A stretch of DNA of 34,718 nt from Deltaproteobacteria bacterium (GTDB taxonomy: Bacteria; Desulfobacterota; GWC2-55-46; DRQE01). A program made the position numbers and the translations under genes. The number at the start of each line of letters is the position of its first letter. Within the stretch, counting starts at the first letter, position 1. Of this stretch, positions 455-25,513 are shown piece after piece. The notes under the pieces were generated by a model. That model had not been told where the DNA came from, ran no database searches, and worked only from the letters and a program-made list of their open reading frames with translations. The DNA lies in assembly GCA_015492495.1 (NCBI GenBank), contig WGEY01000077.1, positions 1 to 34,718 of the forward strand, in the 5' to 3' direction.

Positions 455-1285
455 ATGCCGAATGATTTCCCCCTCCAGGTAAGGATTGAAAATACGAACC
501 TCTGCAACGCCTTTTGTACGATGTGCCCGCGCGAGCAGCTTACAAGGCCCAAGGGCACGATGAGCCTCGACTTCTTCAAGAAGATAGTGAAACAGCTTGC
601 CCGGGGCGGCACCAGGGAGCTTCATCTGCAGGGCTACGGCGAGCCTTTTCTCGATAAGACCATAATCGAGAAGATACGCGCGGCAAAGGATGCGGGCATA
701 CCCTATACATTCATGGTCACGAACGCCTCGCTCCTGAACGACAGGATAAGCAGGGAGCTACTCGAGTCCGGGCTGGACAAGCTGAAGATAAGCTTTTACG
801 GCGTTGACAGGGAAGGGTATGAAAAGGTGCACAACGGGCTGAGCTTTGACGAGGTCAAGCGGAACATCGAGAGGCTCCTGGAGCTCAAGAAGGCCATGGG
901 CACAAAGACCCCTGTCATAGACGTCAAGTACATAGGGAAGGTCTCCGAGTTCCTCGTCTTCATGCTCCAGTGGGGGCTCAAGGCGCGGATCTCCTATGCA
1001 AGGCTGCACAACTACGGCTACGGCAGGCGTTTCAACGCCCCCAAGGTGAAGAAAAGGAACAGGAAGTGCCCGATAGTGACCAGGCCGATCATGCAGGTTC
1101 TGTGGGACGGGCTCGTGGTTCCGTGCTGCTACGACTTCGACGGCAAGGTCATTCTGGGCAGGCTCGGGAATGAATCGGTATCCGATGTGTGGAACGGCGA
1201 GAAGTACAACAGGTTCAGGGAGATACACCGCAGGAGGGAGTACGAAAAGATCCCCATGTGCTACAACTGCGACAAGTTGCGGTAA
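455..1285 (+). CDS. radical SAM protein with SPASM-like C-terminus
   Basis: This is a 276-residue radical SAM enzyme, counted from ATG 455. The track ORF begins at 311, but its first 48 residues (GGYGNAGPDT...) do not resemble the family, and the AT-rich stretch before 455 looks intergenic. The iron-sulfur motif CNAFCTMC (C17, C21, C24) follows a short beta strand, and GYGEP is the usual SAM-contacting GGE-type motif. The C-terminal part has further cysteines (KCPI, PCCYDFDG, CYNC) in a SPASM/twitch-like arrangement that probably holds one auxiliary cluster. Such enzymes cut S-adenosylmethionine to a 5'-deoxyadenosyl radical; the substrate here cannot be told. Its stop overlaps the start of the GT9 gene (TAATG), and a second radical SAM gene of the same type follows, so a role in modifying a core sugar or lipid is a reasonable inference only. 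Confidence 0.88.
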   Translation: MPNDFPLQVRIENTNLCNAFCTMCPREQLTRPKGTMSLDFFKKIVKQLARGGTRELHLQGYGEPFLDKTIIEKIRAAKDAGIPYTFMVTNASLLNDRISRELLESGLDKLKISFYGVDREGYEKVHNGLSFDEVKRNIERLLELKKAMGTKTPVIDVKYIGKVSEFLVFMLQWGLKARISYARLHNYGYGRRFNAPKVKKRNRKCPIVTRPIMQVLWDGLVVPCCYDFDGKVILGRLGNESVSDVWNGEKYNRFREIHRRREYEKIPMCYNCDKLR

Positions 1286-2307
1286 TGTTTGAAGGTTTGA
1301 ACCTCCTCGTAATCAAATACAGTTCACTCGGTGACGTCATAAACGCCGTGCCGGCGGTGAGGCTCCTTAAGCGTAACTGCCCGGATTCCCGTATATACTG
1401 GCTGCTGAACAGGGAGTATGAGGGGCTGCTCTCGGGGGCCCGGTACATAGATGAGATCGTGGTCTACGGGGGAAGGGGCCTCGGTGCCACGCTCGACGTC
1501 GTCCGCAAGATACGTTCACTGAGGATAGACGTCGTTATTGACCTCCAGGGGCTCTTCAAGAGCGGACTCATAGGGTATCTCTCCGGTGCGCGCGAGAGGG
1601 TCTGTTTTCCACACACCAGGGAGTTCAGCTCCATCTTCTATACAAGGAGGCTCGGCCTCGAAAGGGGCTCCGGTGTCCATGCGGTGGTGGAGAACGCCTC
1701 GGTGGTTGAGGAGCTTGTGGATGGAAGAGCAGGCGCAACATACGAGTTCGATCTGCCGGTGGACGAGGCGGCAATAGAGCGCGCCGGTTGTATGGTAAAG
1801 GACGGGACCGGCGGGGACGGGCCACTGGTCGTAATAAGCCCCACCTCGAGGTGGGCAACCAAGCGGTGGGGCGCCGAGAGGTTTGCAAGGCTCGGTGACC
1901 TCCTTGCAGGAGACGGCGGGGCGCGTGTGGTCTTCACCGGGGCGGCCGGGGACTTGGACTACATAGAGGGGATCAGGGAGGGCATGAAAAACCCCGCCCT
2001 GAACCTTGCGGGGAAGACCGACATAAAGACCCTTGTCGCCGTTCTCAAGGCGGCGGACCTCGTCGTGAGCTGTGATTCGGGTCCCATGCACATTGCCTCG
2101 GCCGTGGGCACGCCCGTGGTCGCAATCTTCGGCCCCACCGACCCGGGTTACACCGGGCCGTTCGGTAGAAGATCGGTGGTCATAACATCCGGGGCCGAGT
2201 GCTCACCCTGCCGCAGGAGGAGGTGCGAGGATATGAGGTGTATGAAGGATATCCGGGTGGAAGAGGTATATGAGAAGGTCGTGAGGTCTCTGGAGGGTGA
2301 TGAATAG
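1285..2307 (+). CDS. glycosyltransferase family 9 (ADP-heptose:LPS heptosyltransferase-like)
   Basis: A 340-residue GT9 enzyme. The ATG at 1285 overlaps the stop of the upstream gene and gives the expected N-terminus (LLVIKYSSLGDVINAVPA); the longer track ORF from 1189 only adds out-of-family residues that overlap the radical SAM gene. Family hallmarks are the N-terminal SSLGDVI acceptor-side loop, SPTSRWATKRW, and the nucleotide-sugar binding block CDSGPMHIASAVGTPVVAIFG. A C-terminal cysteine cluster (CSPCRRRRC) is shared with the second GT9 gene in the window. GT9 enzymes transfer L-glycero-D-manno-heptose from ADP-heptose to the inner LPS core on the cytoplasmic face of the inner membrane. 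Whether this one is heptosyltransferase I, III or uses another sugar cannot be decided. It is sandwiched between two radical SAM genes with overlapping or abutting ends, so the three are probably co-translated. Confidence 0.88.
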   Translation: MFEGLNLLVIKYSSLGDVINAVPAVRLLKRNCPDSRIYWLLNREYEGLLSGARYIDEIVVYGGRGLGATLDVVRKIRSLRIDVVIDLQGLFKSGLIGYLSGARERVCFPHTREFSSIFYTRRLGLERGSGVHAVVENASVVEELVDGRAGATYEFDLPVDEAAIERAGCMVKDGTGGDGPLVVISPTSRWATKRWGAERFARLGDLLAGDGGARVVFTGAAGDLDYIEGIREGMKNPALNLAGKTDIKTLVAVLKAADLVVSCDSGPMHIASAVGTPVVAIFGPTDPGYTGPFGRRSVVITSGAECSPCRRRRCEDMRCMKDIRVEEVYEKVVRSLEGDE

Positions 2308-3202
2308 GCTTGTATACAGGACGGAGGTGGCGGCGGCAAGGAGCGTTCTGCCGCTGCTCGAAAGGTGTGGGGTCTTCCGGTTCCCGCGTACCGTGAGGAT
2401 AGAGTCCACGGACATATGCAATGCGAACTGTGTCACCTGCACGAGGGAGATCATGACGCGCCCCAAGGGTGTGATGGACATGGCCCTCTACAGGAAGATA
2501 GTGGACGAGTGCTCGCACTACAGGGTAAGCTCCATACACCTGCACAACTTCGGCGAGCCGCTCATAGACAAGGCCCTCTTCGAAAAGATACGGTATGCCT
2601 CGGCGAAGGGCATGAAGACCCGGCTTTTTTCAAACCTGTCGCTTCTGGACGAGGAGAAGGCCGCGATGCTCGTGCGCTCGGGTCTGAGCAGGATAAAGGT
2701 AAGCATAGATGGCAACTCAAGGGAGACCTTCGAGGCGATCCGAAGGGGGCTCAGCTTCGATAGGGTGGTGGAGAACCTTGAGGTGCTCATAGAGGCCAAG
2801 AAGAGGCTCGGCTCACGGACCCCCGAGATAGGGCTGGTATTCGTGGAGACAGATGAGAACCGTCACGAGAGGGAGGGTTTTCTCAAAAAATGGAAGGGCA
2901 GGGTGGACTCCATAGACATAAGCTCCTACCACAACTGGGCCGGCGGGCTCAGGGACTCGGACGGCAAAGACATGCGGGCCCTACCGTGTCTCAGGATCTG
3001 GCAGACCTTCACCATACTGTGGAACGGCGAGGTGGCGCTCTGCTGCATGGACTATGACGGCAGGGTCAAGCTCGGTAATGTCAGGGAGGATACCATCTAC
3101 GGGATATTCAATGGCCCGAGGCTCAACAGGATAAGGGAGTATCACCTAAGAGGCGCGTTTGAGAGAATACCCATATGCCTGAAGTGCGAGGCGAGGCGGT
3201 AG
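2300..3202 (+). CDS. radical SAM protein with SPASM-like C-terminus (second copy type)
   Basis: About 300 residues. The track starts at GTG 2297 and an ATG follows at 2300; both sit inside the end of the GT9 gene, directly behind TGGAGG, so the exact start is open. The radical SAM motif is CNANCVTC (C41, C45, C48 counted from GTG), followed by HNFGEPLID as the GGE-type motif. The C-terminal domain carries PCLRIWQ, LCCMDYDGRVKLG and CLKC, the same layout as the gene at 455 (including the shared pattern DG-V-LG and IPxCxxC), so the two are paralogues. It differs by an extra N-terminal stretch of about 25 residues. The gene ends the cassette, and a strong terminator follows within 65 bases. The substrate is unknown; the context suggests an envelope glycan or glycolipid. 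Confidence 0.87.
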   Translation: MNRLVYRTEVAAARSVLPLLERCGVFRFPRTVRIESTDICNANCVTCTREIMTRPKGVMDMALYRKIVDECSHYRVSSIHLHNFGEPLIDKALFEKIRYASAKGMKTRLFSNLSLLDEEKAAMLVRSGLSRIKVSIDGNSRETFEAIRRGLSFDRVVENLEVLIEAKKRLGSRTPEIGLVFVETDENRHEREGFLKKWKGRVDSIDISSYHNWAGGLRDSDGKDMRALPCLRIWQTFTILWNGEVALCCMDYDGRVKLGNVREDTIYGIFNGPRLNRIREYHLRGAFERIPICLKCEARR

Positions 3203-3264
3203 CCCGCCTCGTAGCCCCGGGGCACGCCGGGCGGCTGATGGGTATCCTGCCGATCGGTGTGGAG

Positions 3265-3299
3265 CCGCAACCCCGTTACGGGGTCTGCGGTGTTTTTTT
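3265..3299 (+). terminator. Rho-independent terminator after the radical SAM/GT9 cassette
   Basis: CCGCA-ACCCCG and CGGGGT-TGCGG form a long GC-rich stem with a tiny loop and one small bulge, followed by TGTTTTTTT. This ends transcription of the 455-3202 cassette and separates it from the LPS region that starts at 3485. Confidence 0.85.
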
Positions 3300-3484: not shown

Positions 3485-4543
3485 ATGCACGGACATGAAG
3501 ACATAGAGAGGATACTCCTCAGGGTCCCGAACTGGATAGGGGATGCCGTCATGTCGCTCCCCGCCCTGGACGCGCTAAAGGGACACTTCCCTGAGGCCGA
3601 TATAACCGTATTGGCCAAGCCCAGGACGATGCCCTTTTACGGAAAGAACAACACGTCCGTGGCCGATGTCATAGAGTATGATTCAAAGGGCAGGCACTCG
3701 GGTATCGGCGGAAAGATGAGGCTTGCGGCCGAGCTCAAGCGTAGAAAGTTCCAGATGGCGGTGCTCTTTCAGAACGCCTTTGAAGCGGCCCTCTTGAGTT
3801 ACCTCGCGGCGATACCGGAAAGGGTCGGATATGCCAGGGACTTAAGGACCCCGCTCCTAACGAGACCCGTTGAGTTCACCGAGGAGATAGGCCGCAGGCA
3901 CCAGGTGTTCTACTACCTGAACATAATCAGGGAACTCGGTGCGGATGTGCCGATGGAGGAGTACCCGCTTCCCAGAATCCGCGTCGGTGAAGACGAGCTC
4001 GGCAGGGCCTGTGGGATACTGAGGGAGAACGGCGTGGATCCTGGAAGGGACCTCGTTATAGGAGTGGCGCCCGGGGCAAGCTACGGACCCGCCAAGAGGT
4101 GGTCCACGGAGGGGTTCAAGGAGGTCCTGGAGGCCCTTTCAAAGGAGCTCGACGCCACAACCGTGATATTCGGCGGAGGGGATGACGTCGAGATATGCGC
4201 CGCACTCTCCGTGAGCCTTGGTTCTCGGCACGTCAACCTTGCCGGGAGGACGACGCTCAGGGAGTTCATCGCGCTTGCGAGCATGGCGAGGCTCTTCTTA
4301 ACCAACGATTCGGGGCCCATGCACGTCGCCGCAGCACTCGGTGTTCCGACGGTCGCGGTCTTCGGCTCTACAGAGCCGGCGCTTACCGGACCGCTCGGCC
4401 CGAGGGTGCGGGTGGTGAGAAGGAAGGTGGACTGCAGCCCCTGTTTCAAAAGGGAGTGCCCCTACGGCCATTACAACTGCATGACAGGGGTGACGCCCGC
4501 GGATGTGCATGGAGCGGCGGTCGAGATGCTCGAGGTGGTGTGA
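3485..4543 (+). CDS. waaF: lipopolysaccharide heptosyltransferase II-like (GT9)
   Basis: A 352-residue GT9 enzyme that would add the second heptose of the LPS inner core from ADP-L,D-heptose. The N-terminus ILLRVPNWIGDAVMSLPAL is the typical WaaF opening. GVAPGASYGPAKRW and NDSGPMHVAAALGVPTVAVFGSTEP form the donor-binding C-terminal half. A cysteine-rich tail (CSPCFKRECPYGHYNC) is present, as in many WaaF proteins outside Enterobacteria. It is the first gene after a terminator, and its stop lies 4 bases before gmhB, which makes a precursor of its donor sugar. Together with hldA at 16237 it supports a heptose-containing core. The exact linkage made cannot be seen from sequence. Confidence 0.88.
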   Translation: MHGHEDIERILLRVPNWIGDAVMSLPALDALKGHFPEADITVLAKPRTMPFYGKNNTSVADVIEYDSKGRHSGIGGKMRLAAELKRRKFQMAVLFQNAFEAALLSYLAAIPERVGYARDLRTPLLTRPVEFTEEIGRRHQVFYYLNIIRELGADVPMEEYPLPRIRVGEDELGRACGILRENGVDPGRDLVIGVAPGASYGPAKRWSTEGFKEVLEALSKELDATTVIFGGGDDVEICAALSVSLGSRHVNLAGRTTLREFIALASMARLFLTNDSGPMHVAAALGVPTVAVFGSTEPALTGPLGPRVRVVRRKVDCSPCFKRECPYGHYNCMTGVTPADVHGAAVEMLEVV

Positions 4544-4547
4544 CGGT

Positions 4548-5093
4548 ATGGTACGGGCCGTGGTCTACCTCGACAGGGACGGTACGATAAACGAGGATGT
4601 GGGCTACATCGGGGATCCGGACCGCATAAGGCTCCTTGAAGGCGCTGCTCGTGCCATAAGAAGACTCAACACCGAGGGCGTAAAGGTCATTGTCATAACC
4701 AATCAGTCCGGCGTTGCAAGGGGATTTTACACCGAAGACGAGCTCGACGAGGTCAACAGGAGACTGGTCGGGCTCCTCGAGGCCGAGGGGGCGCACCTCG
4801 ACGGGGTGTACTACTGCCCACACCACCCGGACGACGGGTGCGGCTGCAGGAAGCCGGAGGCCGGTCTTGTAAAGAAGGCCGCTGCCGAGCACGGGCTTTC
4901 GGCCCTGCGCTCATATGTGGTGGGAGACAAGGCGTCAGATATCGAACTGGCCGCCAATATAGGCGCAGAGGGGATACTGGTGCTGACCGGCATGGGAAAA
5001 GGCCAGCTCGAAGGGCTTCGCCGCCGGCCTGCGTTCATCGCCAGGGACCTCGGGGAGGCCGTGGACTGGATAGTGAATGACCTTGAAGAATGA
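4548..5093 (+). CDS. gmhB: D-glycero-D-manno-heptose 1,7-bisphosphate 7-phosphatase
   Basis: A 181-residue HAD-superfamily phosphatase, starting at ATG 4548 rather than at the track start 4503, which lies inside waaF. YLDRDGTIN gives the catalytic aspartates D9 and D11; ITNQSG is HAD motif II. CPHHPDDGCGCRKP (C90, H92, C98, C100) is the zinc-binding loop typical of GmhB and histidinol-phosphatase relatives. KPEAGL and VVGDKASDIELA are the later HAD motifs. It removes the 7-phosphate in the ADP-heptose pathway, between the HldA kinase step and the nucleotidyl transfer step. The tight spacing to waaF supports co-expression. Confidence 0.92.
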   Translation: MVRAVVYLDRDGTINEDVGYIGDPDRIRLLEGAARAIRRLNTEGVKVIVITNQSGVARGFYTEDELDEVNRRLVGLLEAEGAHLDGVYYCPHHPDDGCGCRKPEAGLVKKAAAEHGLSALRSYVVGDKASDIELAANIGAEGILVLTGMGKGQLEGLRRRPAFIARDLGEAVDWIVNDLEE

Positions 5094-5189: not shown

Positions 5190-6176
5190 TTGCCAGATTC
5201 CGTATCCATAGTGATACCCGTTTACAATGAGAGGGAGAGCCTTCCCGTACTTTACAGCTCCATAAAGAAGGTGATGGACGACCTTGAAAACCCCTATGAG
5301 ATCGTCTTCGTGGACGACGGGAGCAGGGACGGTTCGCTGGAGATACTCGAGGAGATACAGGCCAGCGACGAAAACGTCGTGGTCGTCTCGTTCAGGAAGA
5401 ACTTCGGTCAGACCGCAGCCATGGCCGCCGGGTTCGAGTACTCAAAGGGGGATGTGGTCGTTACGATGGACGCGGACCTGCAGAACGACCCGGCTGACAT
5501 ACCGATGCTTCTTGAGAAGATAAAGGGGCGTGACATAGTAAGCGGGTGGAGGAAGAACAGGAAGGATCCGTTTCTTTCAAGGAGGCTCCCTTCGATGATG
5601 GCCAACTGGCTGATATCGTTCGTGACCGGTGTTAAGCTCCACGACTACGGCTGTACGCTGAAGGCATACAGAAGGGATGTCATAAGGAACATCAAGCTGT
5701 ACGGCGAGATGCACCGTTTCATTCCGGCGATTGCGAGCTGGGTCGGTGCGGAGATCGTGGAGGTCGAGACCCGCCACCATCCCCGGCGTTACGGGACATC
5801 GAAGTACGGCATATCCAGGACCATAAGGGTGGTCCTGGACCTGATAACGGTCAAGTTTCTGCAGAGTTTTTCGACGCGCCCCATCCATGCCTTCGGCCCC
5901 CCGGGGCTCGTCATGGCCGGGGTTGGCTTTCTGATATCGTTGTATCTAAGCTATGAAAAGTTCGTGCTCGGCGAATCCATCGGCACAAGGCCGCTGCTTC
6001 TGTTGGGGGTGCTCCTCATCATACTCGGGGTGCAGATCATAGTCATGGGGCTTCTCGGTGAGATGCTGGCAAGGGTCTACCACGAGTCTCAGGACAAACC
6101 CATCTTTGTCGTAAAGAAGGTGCTCGGCTCTTCGGCCGACATCTCCGGGGGGTACAGGGCCGGCGGCAAACCATAA
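5190..6176 (+). CDS. membrane-anchored glycosyltransferase family 2 (DPM1/ArnC-like)
   Basis: A 328-residue GT2 enzyme with a TTG start supported by a perfect Shine-Dalgarno sequence. The catalytic domain opens with VSIVIPVYNERESLP, has FVDDGSRDGS and the metal/donor motif MDADLQNDP, and carries WRKNRKDPFLSR as in polyprenyl-phosphate glycosyltransferases. Two membrane helices close the protein (roughly residues 232-257 and 268-294). This layout matches enzymes that load a sugar onto undecaprenyl or dolichyl phosphate on the cytoplasmic side (DPM1, ArnC, GtrB types). The lipid-linked sugar would then be flipped and used outside, which fits the flippase-like gene that follows 7 bases downstream. 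The sugar is unknown. Confidence 0.85.
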   Translation: MPDSVSIVIPVYNERESLPVLYSSIKKVMDDLENPYEIVFVDDGSRDGSLEILEEIQASDENVVVVSFRKNFGQTAAMAAGFEYSKGDVVVTMDADLQNDPADIPMLLEKIKGRDIVSGWRKNRKDPFLSRRLPSMMANWLISFVTGVKLHDYGCTLKAYRRDVIRNIKLYGEMHRFIPAIASWVGAEIVEVETRHHPRRYGTSKYGISRTIRVVLDLITVKFLQSFSTRPIHAFGPPGLVMAGVGFLISLYLSYEKFVLGESIGTRPLLLLGVLLIILGVQIIVMGLLGEMLARVYHESQDKPIFVVKKVLGSSADISGGYRAGGKP

Positions 6177-6183
6177 GGGGCAG

Positions 6184-7179
6184 ATGTCGAAAAGATGGGG
6201 CATGCCCATACTGAAGGTTGCGGTAAGCGCCGCACTCCTGTACATCCTCTTCAGCAAGGTGGATGCACGCCTGGTATGGGACTCGGTATCCTCTGTGGGC
6301 GCAGGCTGGATCGTCTCCGCGGCGCTCTTGTTCGCGGCGCTGCAGTGCATATCGACCTACCGCTGGTCGATAGTATTGGGGAGGGACGTCCATGTGCCGT
6401 ATCCGAGGCTCCTTTCGATGTACTTTGTCGGCATGTTCTTCAACAGCTTCCTGCCCACGATAGTGGGCGGTGACGTTGTAAAGGGGTACTACCTGTACAG
6501 GGAGACCGGGAGGGGAGGGGCGGCCTTCGCCTCTATCCTCATGGACAGGTACTCGGGCTTCGCGGCGCTCATGACCATAACCTTCGTCGCCCTGCTCATA
6601 GGAGGCGGGGCGGTCCATGCAACCGGCGGTACGGGGCTTGTGGTCGTGTTTGCGGCACTTGTCGGTGGGTTCCTCGGAGCGAGCCTTTTTTTGTGGTTTG
6701 AAAGGCTGCATCAATGGCTCGTAAGTGCCCTGTCAGGGATACGCCTCATGGGGCTCAACGAGAAGGTGGACGCCTTCTACAGGACCTTCACGGGCTACCG
6801 GCAGAGCCCCTCCATGCTCGTAGGCGTCTTCCTCATCTCCCTCGCCATCCAGTGCGGCGTGATCACCGGCTACTTCATGCTCGGCAGGGGCATGGGGGTG
6901 GGCGTGCCGATTGGTTACTTCTTTCTCTTCGTGCCGCTTGCAACGACCGCCTCCATGATCCCGCTCTCGCTCTCCGGGCTCGGCATAAGGGAGGGGGTCT
7001 TCGTGTTCCTGTTTTCCAGGGTGGGCATGGACCGCGAGGATGCGCTGGCCCTGAGCCTTCTCTGGTTTCTTGTTACGGTCGTCGTGAGCTTGCCCGGTGC
7101 GGTGGAGTACATAAGAAGGGGGCCCCCAGGAGATGTGCCGGCGGATAGCAACGGGGATCATCACAAGCGAAAAAATTGA
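6184..7179 (+). CDS. flippase-like membrane protein (UPF0104 / lysylphosphatidylglycerol synthase TM family)
   Basis: A 331-residue integral membrane protein with about eight hydrophobic segments. FFNSFLPTIVGGDVVKGYYLYRETG and the late SLSGLGIREGVFVFLF block are characteristic of the YbhN/AglD-like family (also called flippase-like domain or LPG_synthase_TM). Members are thought to move or bind lipids or lipid-linked sugars, but the biochemical role of most is unproven. It directly follows a polyprenyl-phosphate glycosyltransferase-like gene, a pairing that suggests handling of the lipid-linked product. Start ATG 6184 has GGGGC upstream. The stop is followed almost at once by the RBS of the Trm112 gene. 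Confidence 0.85.
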   Translation: MSKRWGMPILKVAVSAALLYILFSKVDARLVWDSVSSVGAGWIVSAALLFAALQCISTYRWSIVLGRDVHVPYPRLLSMYFVGMFFNSFLPTIVGGDVVKGYYLYRETGRGGAAFASILMDRYSGFAALMTITFVALLIGGGAVHATGGTGLVVVFAALVGGFLGASLFLWFERLHQWLVSALSGIRLMGLNEKVDAFYRTFTGYRQSPSMLVGVFLISLAIQCGVITGYFMLGRGMGVGVPIGYFFLFVPLATTASMIPLSLSGLGIREGVFVFLFSRVGMDREDALALSLLWFLVTVVVSLPGAVEYIRRGPPGDVPADSNGDHHKRKN

Positions 7180-7391: not shown

Positions 7392-8273
7392 GTGGACTTT
7401 GCGGCTTATATCGTCTTCAAGGGTTTCGTATGGTTCGTGAACCTCCTGCCTCTTCACGCTTCGCTCGGGCTCGGAAGCCTCATTGGGTCCGTTGCATTCA
7501 GGCTCGGCGGAAAGAGGAGGCGCAGGGTGGTCGAGTCGATCCTCAGGGCCTTTGGCGGTGACAAGTCCGAAGAGGAGGCCACGGCCATAGCCGCATCCAT
7601 GTACCGTAACCTCGGCATGTCGCTCGTGGAGTTCGCGAGGTTCAGCAGGCTCGACGAGGGATATGTCGAAAGGTACGTAAGCTTCGATGGCCTCGAGCGG
7701 ATCGACACGGCGCTTGAGAAGGGAAAGGGGGTCGTCCTTCTTGCCGCACACTTCGGCAACTGGGAGCTCCTGAGCGCCGCGCTGGCGTTGAAGGGGTACA
7801 GGCTAAGCGCCGTGGCAAGGCCCCTGGACAACCGGTATATCAACGCCTGCACCGAAGGGTTCAGAACCGCATTCGGCAACGAGATCATAGAGAAGAAGAA
7901 TGCCCTCAGAAAGATGATGGAGCTTCTGAGGCGTAACGGCATCCTCGGCATCCTGCTCGACCAGCGCTCGTCGAGAAAAGAAGGGGTGATGGTTCGTTTC
8001 TTCAACATCCCGGCCCCCACGAGCAAGGGGCTCGCCGCGGTCGTTGCAAAGACCGGCTCCGAGGTCCTTCCCGTATACATCCACAGGGTGGAGGGGCCCA
8101 GGCACAGGGTGGTCTGCTCGCCCCCCATCGAGCTTGTCCGCAGCGGTGACAGGCAGAGCGACATAAGGGAAAACACGCAGAGGTTCACCGCGGCGATAGA
8201 GGAGTTCATAAGGAGGCATCCGGACCAGTGGTTCTGGTTCCACTCGAGGTGGGAGAGGAGGAAGAAGGCATGA
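7392..8273 (+). CDS. LpxL/HtrB-type lipid A lauroyl (acyl) transferase
   Basis: A 293-residue lysophospholipid acyltransferase-family protein. GTG 7392 is chosen because GGAG lies five bases upstream and no ATG fits. One N-terminal membrane segment (about residues 5-35) is followed by the catalytic HFGNWE motif (H120, E125; the HX4D/E motif), VARPLDN, GILLDQRSSRKEGVMVRFF and a C-terminal HPDQWFWFHSRWE, all typical of LpxL/LpxM. These enzymes add a secondary acyl chain from acyl-ACP to Kdo-lipid A at the inner membrane. The acyl chain length cannot be inferred. It lies inside the core biosynthesis region, so lipid A finishing and core growth are probably co-regulated. Confidence 0.9.
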   Translation: MDFAAYIVFKGFVWFVNLLPLHASLGLGSLIGSVAFRLGGKRRRRVVESILRAFGGDKSEEEATAIAASMYRNLGMSLVEFARFSRLDEGYVERYVSFDGLERIDTALEKGKGVVLLAAHFGNWELLSAALALKGYRLSAVARPLDNRYINACTEGFRTAFGNEIIEKKNALRKMMELLRRNGILGILLDQRSSRKEGVMVRFFNIPAPTSKGLAAVVAKTGSEVLPVYIHRVEGPRHRVVCSPPIELVRSGDRQSDIRENTQRFTAAIEEFIRRHPDQWFWFHSRWERRKKA

Positions 8274-12753: not shown

Positions 12754-14316
12754 ATGCGTAACGATCTTGGAAAGATTCCCTGTAGACCCCCTTCCTTGTC
12801 GCCGACCGAAAGCATAACCCGGATCATGGAGTCCATCGACAAGAACGGCTCCTGCGTAAGAAGGCTGGGAGACAAGCGGGAGGTATGGAGGGTCGGATGC
12901 GGAAGCCGCGTCTTCTATGTCAAGCGTTCATTTTACAGGGGATGGGTGCAGAGGATCCGGGCGCTCTTCCGGCGTACGGGTACGAGGCGCGAGGCCGACC
13001 TCATAGGCGAGCTCCATGAAAGGGGGATACCGGTTCCGACCCTCGTCGCCACAGGGGTGGAGAGATCCGGCGGACTGATCACCGGGGAGTACATCATCAC
13101 CGAGGAGGTCGCCGGCAGCGAATCCTTGAGGGATTTTTTCTTCACCACCTTCAGAAAGCTTCCCAGGGCCGAGAAAAAGAAGGCGGTGGAGGACTTCGCT
13201 GTGTTCATCCGCCGCCTGCACGACAGCGGTGTGGTGCACAAGGACCTCCACATGGGCAACGTGCTCATCGGGCGCGACAGGGACCGTTACGGCTTCCACC
13301 TTCTCGACTTGAACGAGGTCGAGCTCAAAAGCGGAATCACCCTTGCCCAGCGCTGGGAGAATCTGGTCCTCGTAAACATCAACTTCATCAACAACGTCGA
13401 GGACTCGCTCAGGTTCCATTTCCTCAAACACTACTCGAGTGGGCTTTTGAACGGGAGGGAGGAGCTCAGAAAGGTCGCTGCCGAGATAGAGAAGGGTTCG
13501 CTTTCACTCGCCTCCTCCGTATGGAAGAAGAAGGCAAAGAGGTGCATGGGGACGAACAGGCTCTTTGTCGCCACCAGGTACGGCGGGCTCAGGGTCAACC
13601 TCAAGAGAGACTGGGACGGGGTCGAGGGGCTTTCGCGGGTGATTGCCTCGCCGGATGCATTCCTGGACGGCGGGGATTCGGTCATATACAAGGACGGCAG
13701 GACGGTGAAGGCGGCCATGGTCGAACTGGACGGGGGCGGGAAGGTGTTCCTCAAGCGCTACAACAGAAAGGGTGCCTTTCATACACTCAAGAACGTCTTC
13801 CGCAGCTCGAGGGCGAGGAAGGTATGGCAGAAGGGTTATGCAGCGGAACTCAGGGGGTTGAGGATACCCGCCCCTGTTGCATTGATCGAAGAGAGGAGGT
13901 TCAGGCTCCTTTTGAGAAGCTACGTGATAACCGAGTTCATAGACGATGCAACGAGGCTGAACGACTTCGTGGAGCAGGGCATGAAGGAGCGGGTCGACTG
14001 CGGGGTGCTCATGCATGCGCTGGGCCGCGAGATAGGCGGCATGCACAGGCTCGGCTGGTTTCACGGGGACCTAAAGTGGAACAATATACTCGTCGGTCCT
14101 GGCACGGTGTTCTGGTTCCTCGACATAGACGGAAGCATGGTGAAGGGCGGTCTTACGGACGCCGATGTCGCAAAGGACCTCGGTCGTTTCATGCGCGACA
14201 TGGACAAAAGTCCGCTCGGGAAGGAAGAAAAGATAAGGTTCATCCATGGTTACCTGGCACGGAATCCGTCGTCCAGCCGTGCCGTACTGAGACTCCTCGA
14301 AGGAGCGGTGCAATAG
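12754..14316 (+). CDS. protein with two tandem LPS-kinase-type domains
   Basis: A 520-residue protein holding two complete protein-kinase-like folds of the InaA/KdkA/WaaP group. Domain 1 (about 35-245) has the ATP-binding lysine in VFYVKR (K57), the catalytic loop HKDLHMGN (D164, N169) and LLDLNE (D185) in place of DFG. Domain 2 (about 305-515) has VFLKRY (K334), HGDLKWNN (D439, N444) and FLDID (D457). All catalytic residues appear intact in both halves. Such enzymes phosphorylate Kdo or heptose in the LPS inner core at the cytoplasmic face. The fusion could add two phosphates or use one half as a scaffold. ATG 12754 has no clear ribosome site; ATG 12826 is an alternative start. A WaaP-like kinase gene follows two bases later. 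Confidence 0.85.
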   Translation: MRNDLGKIPCRPPSLSPTESITRIMESIDKNGSCVRRLGDKREVWRVGCGSRVFYVKRSFYRGWVQRIRALFRRTGTRREADLIGELHERGIPVPTLVATGVERSGGLITGEYIITEEVAGSESLRDFFFTTFRKLPRAEKKKAVEDFAVFIRRLHDSGVVHKDLHMGNVLIGRDRDRYGFHLLDLNEVELKSGITLAQRWENLVLVNINFINNVEDSLRFHFLKHYSSGLLNGREELRKVAAEIEKGSLSLASSVWKKKAKRCMGTNRLFVATRYGGLRVNLKRDWDGVEGLSRVIASPDAFLDGGDSVIYKDGRTVKAAMVELDGGGKVFLKRYNRKGAFHTLKNVFRSSRARKVWQKGYAAELRGLRIPAPVALIEERRFRLLLRSYVITEFIDDATRLNDFVEQGMKERVDCGVLMHALGREIGGMHRLGWFHGDLKWNNILVGPGTVFWFLDIDGSMVKGGLTDADVAKDLGRFMRDMDKSPLGKEEKIRFIHGYLARNPSSSRAVLRLLEGAVQ

Positions 14317-14318
14317 GC

Positions 14319-15158
14319 ATGCGTCTGGTGCGACATAACGGACTTGTGGTAAACGAGGAGTTCCTCGATGTGTTGAAGGATGCCGGGCTCGACGGTTTTT
14401 CGAGCCTCATGGGCTTCAGCGGCGGCATGCTCTTCAAGAGAAAGAAGACGAGGTCCATCGTAAGGTTCGAGGCGGGCAGGGGGGAGCGTAAGAGGGCGTT
14501 TTACCTCAAGCGCCATTACCGTTCGAGGGGTGAGAGGATGAAGAGGCTTATTCCCGGGGCCCTGGTCGAGGATGGACTGAATGAATGGGAGAAGATGATA
14601 CTCCTCTCGGAACTCGGTTTTCCCACGATGGTCCCTGTAGCCTATGGAGAAGGGAACGAGAACGGGCGGCCCGCCTCGCTAACCCTTACCGAGGAGCTCT
14701 ATGACACCGTAAGGGTCGAGGAGTTCATACCCACGCTCTCCTTCGAGCGTTCGGGCATGGAAGGGGTGATGGAGAAGAGGAGGCTCATAAAGAGGATAGC
14801 CAGGCTTGCCAGGAGGTTCCATGACATGGGATTCAACCACCAGGACTTCTACCTCGGCCACTTCTTCATAAGGCCCGCAACCGGAGAGCTCTTCATGGTA
14901 GACCTGCAGAGGGTCCAGAGGAGGAACAGCCCGCGCAGGAGATGGATCATAAAGGACCTTGCACAGCTGGTCTTCTCTGCGCAGGGCATTGAAAACTTCA
15001 CCGCCTCAGACCTTGTACGTTTCGGACACGCCTATGCCGGAAGGAGCAGGTTCAACGACGAGGACAGGGAGATGATCAAAAGGATACTCGAAAAGTCCAG
15101 GAGGATCGCGGAACATACGGTAAAGCTCTTGGAGCGCAGGGCGAGGGAGGGACGGTGA
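14319..15158 (+). CDS. waaP: WaaP/RfaP-like LPS core heptose kinase
   Basis: A 279-residue kinase. The track ORF runs from 13521, but its first 266 codons are a shadow frame inside the tandem kinase gene; ATG 14319 gives a normal-length WaaP. FYLKRHY supplies the ATP-site lysine, EEFIPTLSFERSG the hinge region, HQDFYLGHFFI (H174, D176, H181) the WaaP-type catalytic loop, and MVDLQRVQ (D195) the metal-binding aspartate. E. coli WaaP phosphorylates the first heptose of the core, stabilising the outer membrane by binding divalent cations. The gene lies between the double kinase and an epimerase, overlapping the latter by four bases. With the upstream gene this gives three kinase domains in a row. 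Confidence 0.85.
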   Translation: MRLVRHNGLVVNEEFLDVLKDAGLDGFSSLMGFSGGMLFKRKKTRSIVRFEAGRGERKRAFYLKRHYRSRGERMKRLIPGALVEDGLNEWEKMILLSELGFPTMVPVAYGEGNENGRPASLTLTEELYDTVRVEEFIPTLSFERSGMEGVMEKRRLIKRIARLARRFHDMGFNHQDFYLGHFFIRPATGELFMVDLQRVQRRNSPRRRWIIKDLAQLVFSAQGIENFTASDLVRFGHAYAGRSRFNDEDREMIKRILEKSRRIAEHTVKLLERRAREGR

Positions 15159-16156
15159 ACTACGAGGAGTTGGAGGGAAGAAGGTACGTCTTCCTGGTTA
15201 CAGGAGGGGCCGGCTTCATAGGTTCGAACCTTGCAATAAGGCTCCTTGAAAAGGGGCAGGCGGTGGTTTTGCTCGACAACTTCTCGACCGGGAGGCGCGA
15301 GAACATCCGGGATATCGAGGAGTTCATGGTCGAAAACGGTATCCCAGGGGAAAGCTTCCGTCTTATCGAAGGCGATATAAGGGAGCAGGAGGTGTGCCTT
15401 CACGCCGCACGGGGTGTGGACTTCGTCCTGCACAACGCGGCCCTGGGCTCCGTGCCGCGTTCCATAGAAGACCCCGTGGCCTCAACCGAGGCGAACGTCG
15501 TCGGTACGGTGAACATGCTTGTTGCCGCAAAAAAGAACCGCGTGAAGAGGTTTGTGTATGCATCGAGCTCGTCCGTCTACGGAGACGCAGAGGGGCTGCC
15601 GAAGCGCGAGGGCGAGGAGGGCAGGCCCCTTTCACCGTACGCCGTAACCAAGGTCGCCGACGAGCTGTACGCAACATGTTTCCAGGATGTGTACGGGCTC
15701 GAGGTGGTGGGGCTCCGCTACTTCAATGTCTTTGGTCCGAGGCAGGACGCCTCTTCGCCGTACGCCGCCGTGATACCCATATTCATAGGGAAGCTACTGC
15801 GCAACGAGCCACCGACCATAAACGGCGACGGAGAGACCACGAGGGACTTTACATACGTAGAAAACGCGGTCCAGGCCAACATAAAGGCCGCCCTGGCGGG
15901 TAGAGAGGCAACAGGAAAGGTCTACAACATAGCCTGCTCCAGGAGGGTGTCGCTGAACGAGCTCTATCAAAAGATAGCCGACCTCCTGGGAAAGGATATA
16001 GCACCGGTTTACGGTCCCGAGAGGAAGGGGGACGTGCGCCACAGCCTTGCGGATATCACCATGGCAAGAACCCTCTTAGGGTACGAACCCGAAATAGACT
16101 TCGAAAGGGGCCTCGAGCTTTCCATAGACTGGTACAGGAAGAACCTCGGGGCGTGA
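15155..16156 (+). CDS. NAD-dependent UDP-sugar 4-epimerase (extended SDR)
   Basis: A 333-residue extended short-chain dehydrogenase, starting with GTG 15155, which overlaps the waaP stop and has GGGAGG upstream. LVTGGAGFIGSNLA (G17-G23) binds NAD, DNFSTGRREN selects the cofactor, and SSSSVYGDAEG plus the YAVTK motif (Y162, K166) form the active site. YFNVFGPRQD and TRDFTYVENAVQANIKAA are substrate-binding signatures of the WbpP/TviC/Gne group of UDP-GlcNAc(A) 4-epimerases. It would supply a galacto-configured UDP sugar to the nearby glycosyltransferases. UDP-Glc versus UDP-GlcNAc specificity cannot be settled by eye. It closes the coupled run that starts at the kinases. Confidence 0.88.
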   Translation: MNYEELEGRRYVFLVTGGAGFIGSNLAIRLLEKGQAVVLLDNFSTGRRENIRDIEEFMVENGIPGESFRLIEGDIREQEVCLHAARGVDFVLHNAALGSVPRSIEDPVASTEANVVGTVNMLVAAKKNRVKRFVYASSSSVYGDAEGLPKREGEEGRPLSPYAVTKVADELYATCFQDVYGLEVVGLRYFNVFGPRQDASSPYAAVIPIFIGKLLRNEPPTINGDGETTRDFTYVENAVQANIKAALAGREATGKVYNIACSRRVSLNELYQKIADLLGKDIAPVYGPERKGDVRHSLADITMARTLLGYEPEIDFERGLELSIDWYRKNLGA

Positions 16157-16236: not shown

Positions 16237-17250
16237 ATGCAGAGACTTCTAAGCACAAAGAAGGCACGTTCCATAATAGGAAGGTTCAGTGATTCAGGGG
16301 TGCTTGTAATAGGCGACCTCATAATGGATCACTTCATATGGGGCAGTGTGACACGCATCTCACCCGAGGCCCCGGTGCCGGTCGTCGAGGTGACAGAGGA
16401 AACTCTCCTTCTCGGCGGGAGCGCCAACGTGGTGAACAACGTCCACAGCCTGGGCGGAAGGTGTTACGTCGGCGGGGTCGTGGGAAGGGATGAGGACGGT
16501 CGACGGATGATCAGGGAGATCAAGCGCAGGGGTATATCGGCAAACGGTGTGATAGTTGATCCCGGACGTCCAACGACCATCAAGACACGTGTCATAGCCC
16601 ACCACCAGCAGGTCGTGAGGTTCGACAGGGAGAGGAAGGCCCCCCTGCGAAGTGAGGCGGTCGCAAGGGTGCTCGACTACATAAAGAAGGTCATAAGGTA
16701 TGCCGATGTGGTTGTCGTATCCGACTATGCAAAGGGGCTGGTGACCGAGGAGCTTGTCTCAACGGTAAGGGGGCTGTGCGAGAGGCTCAGAAAGCCGCTC
16801 GTGGTGGATCCCAAGGTCGAGCACTTCGATTTTTATAAAGGGGCCACAGTTGTAACACCGAACAACATCGAGGCGAGCCTCGCCTCGGGTATTGAGATAA
16901 AGGACGAGACAAGCCTCAGGAAGGCGGGGCGTGCGCTCATTGAAAGGTTGGGCTGCAGGGCGCTTCTCATAACCAGGGGCGAACACGGGATGAGCCTCTT
17001 CGAGGACGGCTCTGAGACGCACATACCGACGGTGGCCAAGGAGGTCTTCGACGTCAGCGGGGCCGGGGACACGGTCGTCGGGGTGATGGCGCTGGCCCTC
17101 GCTGCGGGGGCGAGCTTCAGGGAGGCGGCGGTGCTGGCCAACCTGGCCGCCGGTTGCGTGGTGGAGAAGGTCGGTACGGCGACCGTAAGCCCGGACGAGC
17201 TCATGGACGCCGTCTCTTCAGGGCTTGTGCCGCGCGACATGGGTGACTGA
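16237..17250 (+). CDS. hldA: D-glycero-beta-D-manno-heptose-7-phosphate kinase
   Basis: A 337-residue PfkB-family kinase corresponding to the N-terminal half of HldE (RfaE domain I). VIGDLIMDHFIWGSVTRISPEAPVPVVEV is the family opening, LLGGSANVVNNVHSLGG (around 58-74) the sugar-binding block, VSDYAKGLV a conserved mid-section, and FDVSGAGDTVVGV (D278 as catalytic base) the ATP-site signature. It makes heptose-1,7-bisphosphate, the substrate of GmhB encoded at 4548. The adenylyltransferase half (HldC/RfaE2) is absent from the protein and from the window, so it must be encoded elsewhere. The gene follows the epimerase by 80 bases that hold a likely promoter and a hairpin. Confidence 0.92.
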   Translation: MQRLLSTKKARSIIGRFSDSGVLVIGDLIMDHFIWGSVTRISPEAPVPVVEVTEETLLLGGSANVVNNVHSLGGRCYVGGVVGRDEDGRRMIREIKRRGISANGVIVDPGRPTTIKTRVIAHHQQVVRFDRERKAPLRSEAVARVLDYIKKVIRYADVVVVSDYAKGLVTEELVSTVRGLCERLRKPLVVDPKVEHFDFYKGATVVTPNNIEASLASGIEIKDETSLRKAGRALIERLGCRALLITRGEHGMSLFEDGSETHIPTVAKEVFDVSGAGDTVVGVMALALAAGASFREAAVLANLAAGCVVEKVGTATVSPDELMDAVSSGLVPRDMGD

Positions 17251-21432: not shown

Positions 21433-23295
21433 TCAGGACCTTTTACAGTCTGGTCCTTCCTCTATCCTCGGCACGGCGGAGAGGAGCCTCTTCGTGTACG
21501 GATCCCGCGGGGAGGTGAAGATATCCTCCACCGTGCCGCTCTCGACTATCCTGCCGTTGTGCATAACCGCGACCTCGTCGGCTATGTATTCGACGACACC
21601 GAGGTCGTGGGTTATGAAGAGGAAGGACAGACCGAAGTCCCGCTGGATGGATTTGAGGAGGTTCAGTATCTGCGCCTGGACCGAGACGTCGAGTGCGCTT
21701 GTGGCCTCGTCGCAGACTATGAACCTGGGGTCCACGGCGAGGACCCTGGCGATCCCTATCCTCTGGCGCTGGCCGCCGGAGAACTCGTGCGGGTAACGGT
21801 GCATCATGTCAGGGGTAAGCCCCACCATCTCGAGGGTGGCGGCCACCTTGTCCGCACGCTGTTGCCTGGTCATCCCGGGCTTTAGGCTCTTAAGCCCCTC
21901 TTCTATGATCTGCCCCACCATGAGGCGCGGGTTAAGCGCCGAGTAAGGGTCCTGGAAGATTATCTGTACGAGGCTGCGGAGCGGCTTGAGCTCCTTCGGG
22001 CCGAGCCTGCAGAGGTCTTTTCCCTCGAACAGGACCTCACCGGCCGTGGGCCTTAGAAGCTGCAGGATGGCCTTGCCTGCGGTGGTCTTTCCGCAACCCG
22101 ACTCCCCCACAAGCGCAAGTGTGGAGCCTTCCCTCACGGTGAGGTCTATGCCGTCGACCGCCCTGACGTGGTCCACGGTCCTCTTGAAGACACCCTTCTT
22201 GACGGGATAGTAACACTTGAGCCCCCTTACCTCGAGAAGGACGGGCCTTTCCCTGTGAGGAAGGTCGAGCCTCGCTCTTCCCCCGGCGGTCTCGTGCTGG
22301 GCCTCTGCAACAGGTGCCGACACGCCGCTTCTCTTGTAGAGGTGGCAGGCCACGAGGTGTCCTTCGTCCCTTTCGACAAGCGGCGGTTCCGTCGTCCTGC
22401 ACAGATCGAGCTCCCTGTCGCACCTGCCCGAGAACCTGCATCCCGGCGGGAATTCCGTAGGCGGTGGGACGGTTCCGGGGATCGTATCGAGCGGCCTGCC
22501 CCTTTTTTCCATGCCCGGTATCGAGCGCAGAAGCTTGAGCGTGTAGGGGTGCATGGGGTTTCGGAATATCTTCCCGGTCGGGGCCTTCTCCACTATCTTG
22601 CCCCCGTACATGACCCCGACCTCTTCGGCGTTCTGGTAGACCACCGCGAGGTTGTGGCTTATGAAGAGCACGGCCATGCCCATCTCTTCGCGCATCTCCT
22701 TTATGAGGTCGAGTATCTCCTCCTGTATGGTTACATCCAGTGCGGTCGTGGGCTCGTCGGCTATGAGAAGGTCGGGCCTGCACGAGAGGGCGATGGCGAT
22801 CATCACCCTCTGGCGCATCCCGCCTGAAAGCCTGTGCGGATACTCGTTGAAGATCCTTTCGGGAGAGGGCAGGTGCACCCTGTCGAGCATCTCTATTGCA
22901 ACGGCCCTGGCCTCCCGCCTGGACCTTCCCTGGTGCAACATCACCGCCTCGACTATCTGTTCGCCGACGGTGAACACTGGGTTGAGCGAGGTCATGGGCT
23001 CCTGGAATATCATGGAGATGTTGTTGCCGCGTATCTTCCTTTTTTCGGACTCCTTGAGTGTAGTTATCTCCATCCCGTTGAGGAGGATGGATCCTCCGGC
23101 CAGGAAACCCTGCGGCTGGGGGATGAGCTGTATTATGGACAGTGCGGTCACGGACTTTCCGCAGCCCGACTCCCCCACGAGCGCGAGCGTCCTGCCCCTT
23201 TCGATGGAAAAGGAGACACCGTCGACGGCCCGTCCTATCCCATGCGGGGTCCGGAAGTAGGTCTTGAGCTCTCTTACCTCTATCACTGGTCTCAT
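21433..23295 (-). CDS. peptide ABC importer, fused double ATPase (YejF-like)
   Basis: About 620 residues with two complete ABC cassettes in one chain. Positions below count from the track start TTG 23322; I prefer ATG 23295 (MRPVIEVRELKTYF), though neither has a well-placed ribosome site. Cassette 1: Walker A GESGCGKS (50-57), signature LSGGMRQRV, Walker B LLIADEP. It is followed by the oligopeptide-type extension, with four cysteines (C295, C301, C308, C326) in CRFSGRCDRELDLCR...AC. Cassette 2: GESGCGKT (407-414), FSGGQRQRIG, FIVCDEA. It powers the two permeases encoded upstream. Separate DppD and DppF ATPases are the norm in Dpp/Opp systems; the fused form is typical of YejF. It is the last gene of the operon. 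Confidence 0.93.
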   Translation of the reverse strand: MRPVIEVRELKTYFRTPHGIGRAVDGVSFSIERGRTLALVGESGCGKSVTALSIIQLIPQPQGFLAGGSILLNGMEITTLKESEKRKIRGNNISMIFQEPMTSLNPVFTVGEQIVEAVMLHQGRSRREARAVAIEMLDRVHLPSPERIFNEYPHRLSGGMRQRVMIAIALSCRPDLLIADEPTTALDVTIQEEILDLIKEMREEMGMAVLFISHNLAVVYQNAEEVGVMYGGKIVEKAPTGKIFRNPMHPYTLKLLRSIPGMEKRGRPLDTIPGTVPPPTEFPPGCRFSGRCDRELDLCRTTEPPLVERDEGHLVACHLYKRSGVSAPVAEAQHETAGGRARLDLPHRERPVLLEVRGLKCYYPVKKGVFKRTVDHVRAVDGIDLTVREGSTLALVGESGCGKTTAGKAILQLLRPTAGEVLFEGKDLCRLGPKELKPLRSLVQIIFQDPYSALNPRLMVGQIIEEGLKSLKPGMTRQQRADKVAATLEMVGLTPDMMHRYPHEFSGGQRQRIGIARVLAVDPRFIVCDEATSALDVSVQAQILNLLKSIQRDFGLSFLFITHDLGVVEYIADEVAVMHNGRIVESGTVEDIFTSPRDPYTKRLLSAVPRIEEGPDCKRS

Positions 23296-23322
23296 GGTCA
23301 AGGTACAAGGCCTCCCGGGCAA

Positions 23323-24504
23323 TCAGCGTCTTCCGAGCCGGAGCCTCGGCTCCAGCGCGTCCCTTACGGCGTCTCCGAAGATGTTTGCAGGGAGTACGAG
23401 GCCGAACATGAACACAAATGCGCCGAGGAGGTTCCACCACACAACCGGGTCCCTGGAGAGCTCGAGCCTCGCCGTGTTGATCATGTTGCCCCAGCTTCCC
23501 ATCTCCGGCCCCACGCCTATCCCTATGTAGCTCAGGACGGCCTCGGCCAGGACGAGCCCGCTGAACTGCAGCACGAAGGTTATCAGCACCAGGTGCATGA
23601 GGTTTGGCACTATGTGCCTGAATATTATCATGAGCCTCGGAACCCCGAATGCCTTTGACGCCTGGACGTATTCGAGCTCCCTGAGCTTGAGGGTTTCGCC
23701 CCTGATGATCCTGCATAGATCGGTCCACGAGGTTATGCCCATTATCATGCACAGCCAGAAGAGCCTGTCCGTGGGCACGAACACGCCCATGAAGAGGTCT
23801 TCGTCGGTTACGAGGCCGCCCTGGTACCCCTCGGTGCCGAAGATGAGCATGAAGGCCACTATCAGGAGGACCCCCGGGATGGACGAGAGGGTGGTATAGA
23901 TGTACTGGATTATGTCGTCTACCACCCCGCCGAAGTAGCCGGCGAGCACGCCGAACAGTATGGCGAAGGGGATGATTATTATGGTGGTGCCGGTGCCTAT
24001 GACGACCCCGGTGCGTATCCCCTTTATCGCCTCGAAGAGCACGTCTGAGCCGACCTTGTCGGTGCCGAGCCAGTGTTTGCCGGGATACCTCAGGGGCGGG
24101 TAGTCACGCACCACCGTGCCGTCCGGCCTTTCAATGGACTCCTTGACGTAAAGGCGGGTGGCGAAGGGTGCGGAAAAGGTCTTCTCGGTCCTCTCGCGCA
24201 TGCCCGAGAGCGCCCTGTCAAGCAGGCTCAGGGCCTGCGGGCTGTAGATCCTCTTTCCGGATTCGGTACGCGCCTCCGAGCCGTCTTCCATGAAGACCGG
24301 ATCGCGCCAGCGTATGCTGTCCATGAGCGCCACAGTACCGTACAAAAGGAGTATGAACATGCAGACCAGCGCCACCCGGTCGTTCCGCACGTGACGCCAG
24401 ACCTGCGCAACATAGCCCTCGCCCCTTCCAGCCGTGGCCGCGACCACGGCCACCGTGATGAAGACGAGGTATATGATTATGTCGGTAGCCAGTATTACAG
24501 GCAT
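23323..24504 (-). CDS. peptide ABC importer permease, DppC/YejE-like
   Basis: A 393-residue inner membrane permease. Two N-terminal hydrophobic segments (about 3-25 and 42-62) precede a hydrophilic insert of some 100 residues (RWRDPVFMEDGSEARTES... to KHWLGTDKVGSDV). The usual five-helix core follows. WLGTDKVGSDVLFEAIKGIRTG is the DppC/OppC entry signature, and YVQASKAFGVPRLMIIFRHIVPN is the EAA loop that contacts the ATPase. The extra N-terminal helix and periplasmic-type insert make it longer than a standard DppC (about 300 residues) and more like YejE. AAGGTGA precedes ATG 24504. It lies 15 bases after the partner permease. Confidence 0.92.
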   Translation of the reverse strand: MPVILATDIIIYLVFITVAVVAATAGRGEGYVAQVWRHVRNDRVALVCMFILLLYGTVALMDSIRWRDPVFMEDGSEARTESGKRIYSPQALSLLDRALSGMRERTEKTFSAPFATRLYVKESIERPDGTVVRDYPPLRYPGKHWLGTDKVGSDVLFEAIKGIRTGVVIGTGTTIIIIPFAILFGVLAGYFGGVVDDIIQYIYTTLSSIPGVLLIVAFMLIFGTEGYQGGLVTDEDLFMGVFVPTDRLFWLCMIMGITSWTDLCRIIRGETLKLRELEYVQASKAFGVPRLMIIFRHIVPNLMHLVLITFVLQFSGLVLAEAVLSYIGIGVGPEMGSWGNMINTARLELSRDPVVWWNLLGAFVFMFGLVLPANIFGDAVRDALEPRLRLGRR

Positions 24505-24519
24505 CTTCGCGTCACCTTC

Positions 24520-25500: not shown

Positions 25501-25513
25501 CGCTTGACCCTCC

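Follow-up and report, generated by a model that had tools for sequence, protein, structure and literature searches.

The inner core of lipopolysaccharide (LPS) is generally regarded as the conserved portion of the outer membrane, with assembly enzymes that are taken as known. Here we describe a three-gene unit in the LPS core locus of a Deltaproteobacteria bacterium (contig WGEY01000077.1, 34,718 nucleotides, all of it analyzed and hereafter called the window), in which two radical S-adenosylmethionine (SAM) enzymes, designated rSAM1 and rSAM2, enclose a glycosyltransferase of family GT9, designated GT9a. This trio recurs in related genomes, where GT9a is found in place of the heptosyltransferase-I-like (hepI-like) gene that is usual for the lineage, and it may serve to modify a sugar of the inner core. 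The parts of the trio are of known kinds, and the combination and the role proposed for it are undescribed in the literature that could be searched. No relevant link of radical SAM enzymes to heptosyltransferases or to the LPS core was found among 5.39 million open-access publications, subscription journals being mostly outside the search.

Among solved radical SAM enzymes, the closest to both rSAM1 and rSAM2 by sequence is BtrN, the 2-deoxy-scyllo-inosamine dehydrogenase of butirosin biosynthesis. Like them, BtrN has a radical SAM core and a Twitch tail with one auxiliary cluster on four cysteines. It differs in that it shares only about 17% identity with them in the fold comparison, is without the second cysteine of a CC pair that both carry, and belongs to an aminoglycoside pathway rather than standing beside a glycosyltransferase of an LPS locus. 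BlsE and DesII are the next closest by sequence and fold; their substrates are nucleotide- or nucleoside-linked sugars, and they differ from rSAM1 and rSAM2 in their tail domains and reactions (decarboxylation or deamination). Previous studies showed that BtrN oxidizes a ring hydroxyl (PMC9012708), and its fully ligated auxiliary cluster is thought to accept the second electron as the sugar hydroxyl is converted to a ketone (PMC9012708, PMC6231123). For the radical SAM sugar epimerase NeoN, the returning hydrogen is supplied by a cysteine (PMC10991966). Function is hard to predict from sequence clustering in this radical SAM subfamily (PMC6231123). With regard to GT9a, the relevant known enzymes are WaaC and WaaF, with which it shares the GT9 fold family and active-site residues, but it scores below the curated cut-offs for heptosyltransferases I, II and III and forms a separate clade.

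Two Twitch-type radical SAM enzymes enclose a GT9 gene

The three genes are arranged head to tail, rSAM1 and GT9a overlapping by 1 base and GT9a and rSAM2 by 11 bases. A hairpin 3' of rSAM2 (positions 3264-3291, -18.7 kcal/mol, z -2.69, with 2 of 200 shuffled sequences equally good) is followed by a T7 run. It was not picked up by a simple consensus terminator scan, but it fits an intrinsic terminator, and because it comes after rSAM2 the trio is probably a transcription unit of its own. Thus, the overlapping ends and shared terminator described in an earlier note on this DNA were both confirmed. A recent foreign island was considered and rejected on base composition, GC and GC3 of the trio genes being the same as those of their neighbors.

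Pfam domains above the curated cut-offs were Radical_SAM and SPASM in rSAM1 and rSAM2, and Glyco_transf_9 in GT9a. Both flanking proteins belong to the radical SAM superfamily, as judged by the Radical_SAM match together with a CxxxCxxC motif (C17/C21/C24 in rSAM1, C41/C45/C48 in rSAM2). The auxiliary-cluster cysteines are C205, C224, C269 and C272 in rSAM1 and C231, C249, C294 and C297 in rSAM2, and the tail spacing in both is C-x17/18-C-x44-C-x2-C, plus an extra cysteine adjoining the second one. The cysteines of both enzymes are invariant in seven genomes (14 family sequences), and the four tail positions are invariant in 49/49 wider homologs aligned. The second cysteine of the CC pair is also common among these homologs (32/49) and hence is not a specific marker. 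The seven-cysteine SPASM motif, CX9-15GX4C-gap-CX2CX5CX3C-gap-C (PMC6231123), was found in neither protein, each having four tail-cluster cysteines and one adjacent. Both are therefore assigned by their motifs to the Twitch subclass, with one fully ligated auxiliary site predicted from the four cysteines. The arrangement and domains given in the earlier note hold, whereas the tails it called SPASM-like are of the one-cluster Twitch type.

Sequence profiles of both enzymes gave BtrN as the best PDB relative (E 1e-20 for rSAM1, 1e-17 for rSAM2), with a match that spans both the radical SAM core and the tail; BlsE or DesII came next. Foldseek searches with structure models returned SuiB, BtrN, MoaA and DesII for rSAM1, and SkfB, BtrN, DesII and BlsE for rSAM2, which has an extra N-terminal helix of ~25 aa in its model. 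A BtrN-type relationship over both domains was thus seen in sequence and fold. Invariant cysteines that do not belong to the clusters are also present (C225 in rSAM1; C72 and C250 in rSAM2), a possible likeness to NeoN-type epimerases. Because full cluster ligation is combined with these spare cysteines, dehydrogenation and epimerization are both candidate reactions of rSAM1 and rSAM2. It had been suggested that a sugar or its lipid carrier is epimerized, dehydrogenated or cross-linked; the closest structures, which are enzymes of aminoglycoside and nucleoside sugars, agree with the first two reactions on a sugar, and nothing was found for cross-linking or for a lipid carrier.

The two radical SAM enzymes share 38% identity across 276 residues (E 7e-65), but they are paralogs in a wide sense only. 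In a tree of 63 rows, rSAM2 is grouped (97/96) with one gene from Nitrospirota and others from Planctomycetota, Omnitrophota, Alpha- and Betaproteobacteria, and rSAM1 belongs to a different clade (98/95) that also contains sequences of Syntrophaceae, Desulfobacteraceae and Lentisphaerota, among others. A single clade for both was rejected (p 0.017), and with it a recent tandem duplication. Since the two fall in different clades, the tree indicates that the trio joined two enzyme types.

Conservation of the trio

Conservation was analyzed in 59 related genomes. Six of the eight other genomes of the GTDB family, whose records are labeled Deltaproteobacteria metagenome-assembled genomes (MAGs), contain both radical SAM genes with GT9a between them in the same core locus (seven genomes including the window), and the order waaF-gmhB-GT2-lpxL-GT4 downstream is retained wherever the contig is long enough. 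The left neighbor differs among relatives (PHO4, PfkB, a Radical_SAM_C protein, HPPK, UPF0047); it was therefore rejected as a member of the system, and the conserved block starts at rSAM1. Identity of the relatives to the window is 59-73% for the radical SAM enzymes, 49-59% for GT9a, 50-64% for waaF and 54-60% for gmhB. As the values for the radical SAM pair exceed the others, the pair is under firm constraint, and with the same order in six other genomes at such identity the arrangement is more than chance. The search for conserved gene order that had been proposed as a check thus found it kept across one family, within the inner-core LPS locus.

Outside this family, no paired cassette was seen among 297 genomes sampled from the phylum. 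The scan of the genome collection used two peptide patterns, which more distant trios could escape. Tandem or near-tandem pairs of distant rSAM homologs do recur in the phylum (L106, L107, L108, L109, L113), several of them in surface-glycan clusters.

GT9a in place of the hepI-like transferase

Only two GT9 genes, GT9a and waaF, are present in the genome. GT9a retains the residues matching D13, K192, D261, G263 and H266 of E. coli WaaC (catalytic/ADP-heptose site) and therefore should be active, although it is below the curated heptosyltransferase models (e.g., TIGR02193, 122.5 vs 185.3 bits). In the loci examined from sister families and from two trio-less family members (G003 and G004), a second GT9 of another type is located beside waaF/gmhB, and in most of these loci the same GT2 and flippase genes come next. 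One of these hepI-like proteins exceeds the heptosyltransferase I cut-off (195.8 vs 185.3 bits) and others are near it, and such a gene stands beside waaF in nearly all of the order's other genomes. With a GT9a profile, scores of 523-597 bits were obtained in the seven trio-bearing genomes and in them alone; elsewhere in the order no genome scored above 295 bits. None of the seven had a match to it in the hepI-like range, with the caveat that these are draft genomes.

In the GT9 tree, GT9a stands in a clade by itself (100/99), separate from WaaF as well as from the clade of hepI-like genes (91/92), and the waaF of the window is of the ordinary type, orthologous to waaF of sister families. A grouping of GT9a with the hepI-like genes of G003 and G004 was rejected (p 0.0003); one with the Nitrospirota GT9 located immediately 3' of an rSAM2 ortholog was allowed (p 0.51). 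By this tree test and by co-occurrence, GT9a appears to have exclusively replaced the usual heptosyltransferase-I-like enzyme of the lineage. Gain of one GT9 type and loss of the other may have been one event; trees of gmhB and GT2 were not strong enough to show which of the two came first inside the family. The proposal that the radical SAM pair is locked to a GT9 is strengthened by this replacement, but the trio itself was seen in one family.

Genomic context of outside relatives

Twelve genomes contain the closest outside relatives of rSAM1 and rSAM2, 11 with one strong homolog and one with three, none in the trio arrangement. In a planctomycete locus with the order hldE-gmhB-rSAM2-waaC-waaF-GT4-kinase, the rSAM2-clade gene directly precedes an unmistakable waaC (340 bits, cut-off 185). 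In a Syntrophaceae MAG (L068:6481-8849), an rSAM1-clade gene directly follows a waaA-like transferase gene for 3-deoxy-D-manno-octulosonic acid (Kdo). An alphaproteobacterial rSAM2-clade gene is followed by an lpxL-like gene, and a Nitrospirota rSAM2 ortholog directly by a GT9. A tally of 112 neighbors of wider homologs contained methyltransferases, other radical SAM/B12-binding proteins, asparagine-synthase-like proteins and aminotransferases, as well as cytidylyltransferases, GT2, GT9 and ABC-2 exporters, suggesting that these homologs mostly lie in surface-glycan clusters. The earlier note held that a role in LPS would be unlikely if homologs were found mainly beside peptide-precursor or tRNA/cofactor genes; they are instead mostly beside surface-polysaccharide or LPS genes, with some rSAM2-clade members elsewhere.

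Two further loci were observed among the relatives. Four related Twitch-like radical SAM genes occur within one 12 kb contig (L054, G053:C343:1-12487), perhaps for a glycan with several radical-made sugars, and an rSAM2-clade gene adjoins genes for an ELM1-like protein (PF06258) and GT4 proteins (L111:7632-9629).

Surroundings of the trio in the window

The LPS genes 3' of the trio are listed in Table 1; several glycosyltransferase genes also lie on this side. As waaA was found on another contig of the same genome, Kdo-containing LPS is expected in this organism.

Table 1. Positions of the trio and of LPS-related features in the window
Feature	Position	Strand	Description	Evidence
rSAM1	455..1285	+	Twitch-type radical SAM enzyme, 276 aa	PF04055 and PF13186 above cut-off
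GT9a	1285..2307	+	GT9 heptosyltransferase, 340 aa	PF01075, 167 bits
rSAM2	2297..3202	+	Twitch-type radical SAM enzyme, 301 aa	Pfam above cut-off
Hairpin	3264..3299	+	intrinsic terminator-like hairpin with T7 tail, closes the three-gene unit	
waaF	3485..4543	+	heptosyltransferase II, conserved neighbor	TIGR02195, 237 bits (cut-off 134.6); syntenic in relatives
gmhB	4545..5093	+	heptose-1,7-bisphosphate phosphatase, conserved neighbor	NCBIfam PRK08942, 173 bits, slightly below cut-off 178; synteny
GT2	5190..6176	+	polyprenyl-phosphate sugar transferase (ArnC-like), conserved neighbor	domain matches, synteny
Flippase-like	6184..7179	+	membrane protein, neighbor conserved in most relatives	PF03706, TIGR00374; synteny
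lpxL	7392..8273	+	LpxL-type lipid A acyltransferase, conserved neighbor	PF03279; synteny
Core kinases	12754..15158	+	Kdo/WaaP-family LPS core kinases, same LPS region	PF06293; RfaP-like 127 bits, under cut-off
hldE	16237..17250	+	kinase domain (heptose-7-phosphate kinase)	TIGR02198, 389 bits (cut-off 345)

The kinase region contains two consecutive genes. Two stretches of the first (520 aa) match the Kdo/WaaP kinase model, and the second is like the heptose I kinase RfaP, below its cut-off. A gene of the PAP2 phosphatase family lies inside the core locus of one trio-bearing relative (L041:9786-10364), and a gene for a small membrane protein resembling it in one trio-less relative (L123:5027-5599); none was called there in the window. 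Further downstream, the minus strand carries a dipeptide/oligopeptide ABC transporter operon (21433-27721) with a fused double ATPase, two permeases and a binding protein.

Proposed role and alternative explanations

We give an even chance to the idea that the trio is a dedicated sugar-acting radical unit that modifies inner-core LPS, with GT9a matched to the altered substrate. In the mechanism that we infer, with its substrate, type of reaction and order of steps, rSAM1 and rSAM2 would act as BtrN-like Twitch enzymes whose 5'-deoxyadenosyl radical abstracts a hydrogen from a sugar C-H. The sugar radical would then be either oxidized via the fully ligated auxiliary cluster, giving a ketone, or quenched from the opposite face, giving an epimer. 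The modified sugar would most likely be at the Kdo/heptose-I junction. Loss of the hepI-like enzyme and gain of GT9a argue for a change at the first-heptose step, and both the waaA neighbor in Syntrophaceae and the waaC neighbor in the planctomycete point to this step. The modification would more likely be on the Kdo acceptor side than in the ADP-heptose pool, since WaaF draws on this donor as well and does not differ in type from that of sister lineages; GT9a, in place of the hepI-like enzyme, would be matched to the altered substrate. That the radical SAM route thereby rewrites the Kdo-heptose junction, to be read by the replaced first heptosyltransferase, and makes an inner core unlike any described, is a more tentative proposal to which we give somewhat less than an even chance.

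It should be noted that several observations weigh against a role in the inner core. The structure models are moderate (pLDDT 76 and 79), parts of the tail domains being among the weakest regions, and the first fold match of rSAM2, SkfB, is a peptide enzyme. The trio is restricted to one family and hence may be a single evolutionary event. An approximately unbiased (AU) test allows GT9a to be grouped with all hepI-like GT9s (p 0.18), so that the term replacement rests on the narrower tree test and co-occurrence. Finally, rSAM2-clade members of Omnitrophota (L064) and Thermoguttaceae (L065) have no LPS neighbors, and most distant homologs are in O-antigen-type clusters and so may act on other glycans.

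The last point bears on an explanation that we consider unlikely, namely that the trio makes or decorates another glycan (outer core, O-antigen or a lipid-linked sugar), heptose I being added by another family or absent. Most wider homologs are indeed accompanied by GT2, aminotransferase, CTP-transferase and epimerase genes in clusters that resemble those for O-antigen, the genes for the polyprenyl-phosphate GT2 and the flippase belong to the conserved block, and the terminator-like hairpin stands between the trio and waaF. However, the genome has no GT9 besides GT9a and WaaF, the hepI-like GT9 is excluded wherever GT9a is present, and clade relatives adjoin waaC and waaA. Also unlikely, if marginally less so, is that the pair acts on the donor, so that ADP-heptose (or a different NDP-sugar) is epimerized or oxidized and then transferred by GT9a as the first core residue. 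DesII and BlsE, with their nucleotide- or nucleoside-linked substrates, are among the closest structures, and GT9a has kept its donor-site residues and stands apart from other GT9 clades, both of which are consistent with this possibility. The ordinary WaaF, drawing on the same ADP-heptose pool and orthologous to that of sister families, is not, and no dedicated nucleotide-sugar genes accompany the trio in the loci of relatives compared.

Two other explanations appear very improbable. The radical SAM pair could substitute for a missing HldD, a radical 6-epimerase yielding L-glycero-D-manno-heptose instead of the NAD-dependent epimerase. Neither the genome nor 12 relatives contain HldD above the curated cut-off, hldE and gmhB are present, and radical SAM sugar epimerases such as NeoN exist (PMC10991966). 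On the other hand, relatives that have no trio are equally without HldD, so the trio does not track its loss, and HldD replacement was rejected on this basis; moreover, a divergent HldD could fall below the cut-off, and one enzyme would suffice where two are found. Either the core heptose may be in the D,D form or HldD may be divergent. The gene nearest to HldD is that for a TviC/GalE-like epimerase (window 15155-16156). Just as improbable is that the two enzymes mature a peptide or a metallocofactor and lie near LPS genes by chance. In NCBIfam they come closest to a tungsten-cofactor maturase and a putative metalloenzyme maturase (TIGR04317, TIGR04311), and SkfB heads the fold matches for rSAM2, but the NCBIfam scores of 118 and 93 bits are far under the cut-offs of 380 and 400, and this assignment was rejected. 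The overlapping trio has no room for a precursor of a ribosomally synthesized and post-translationally modified peptide, small open reading frames elsewhere not being systematically scanned; a peptide-recognition domain is not evident in the models, and the order is kept in an LPS locus across seven genomes.

The analysis arrives at a compact set that can be tested, made up of three genes and a few candidate substrates. If modification of the inner core by the trio is true, a radical-chemistry step in this structure would be new to LPS biology and would take BtrN-like chemistry beyond antibiotics into the cell envelope. It would also explain the loss and replacement of the ordinary heptosyltransferase-I-like gene in this family, and the relatives with a single radical SAM gene by waaC, waaA or GT9 in Planctomycetota, Syntrophaceae and Nitrospirota would then belong to a wider theme.

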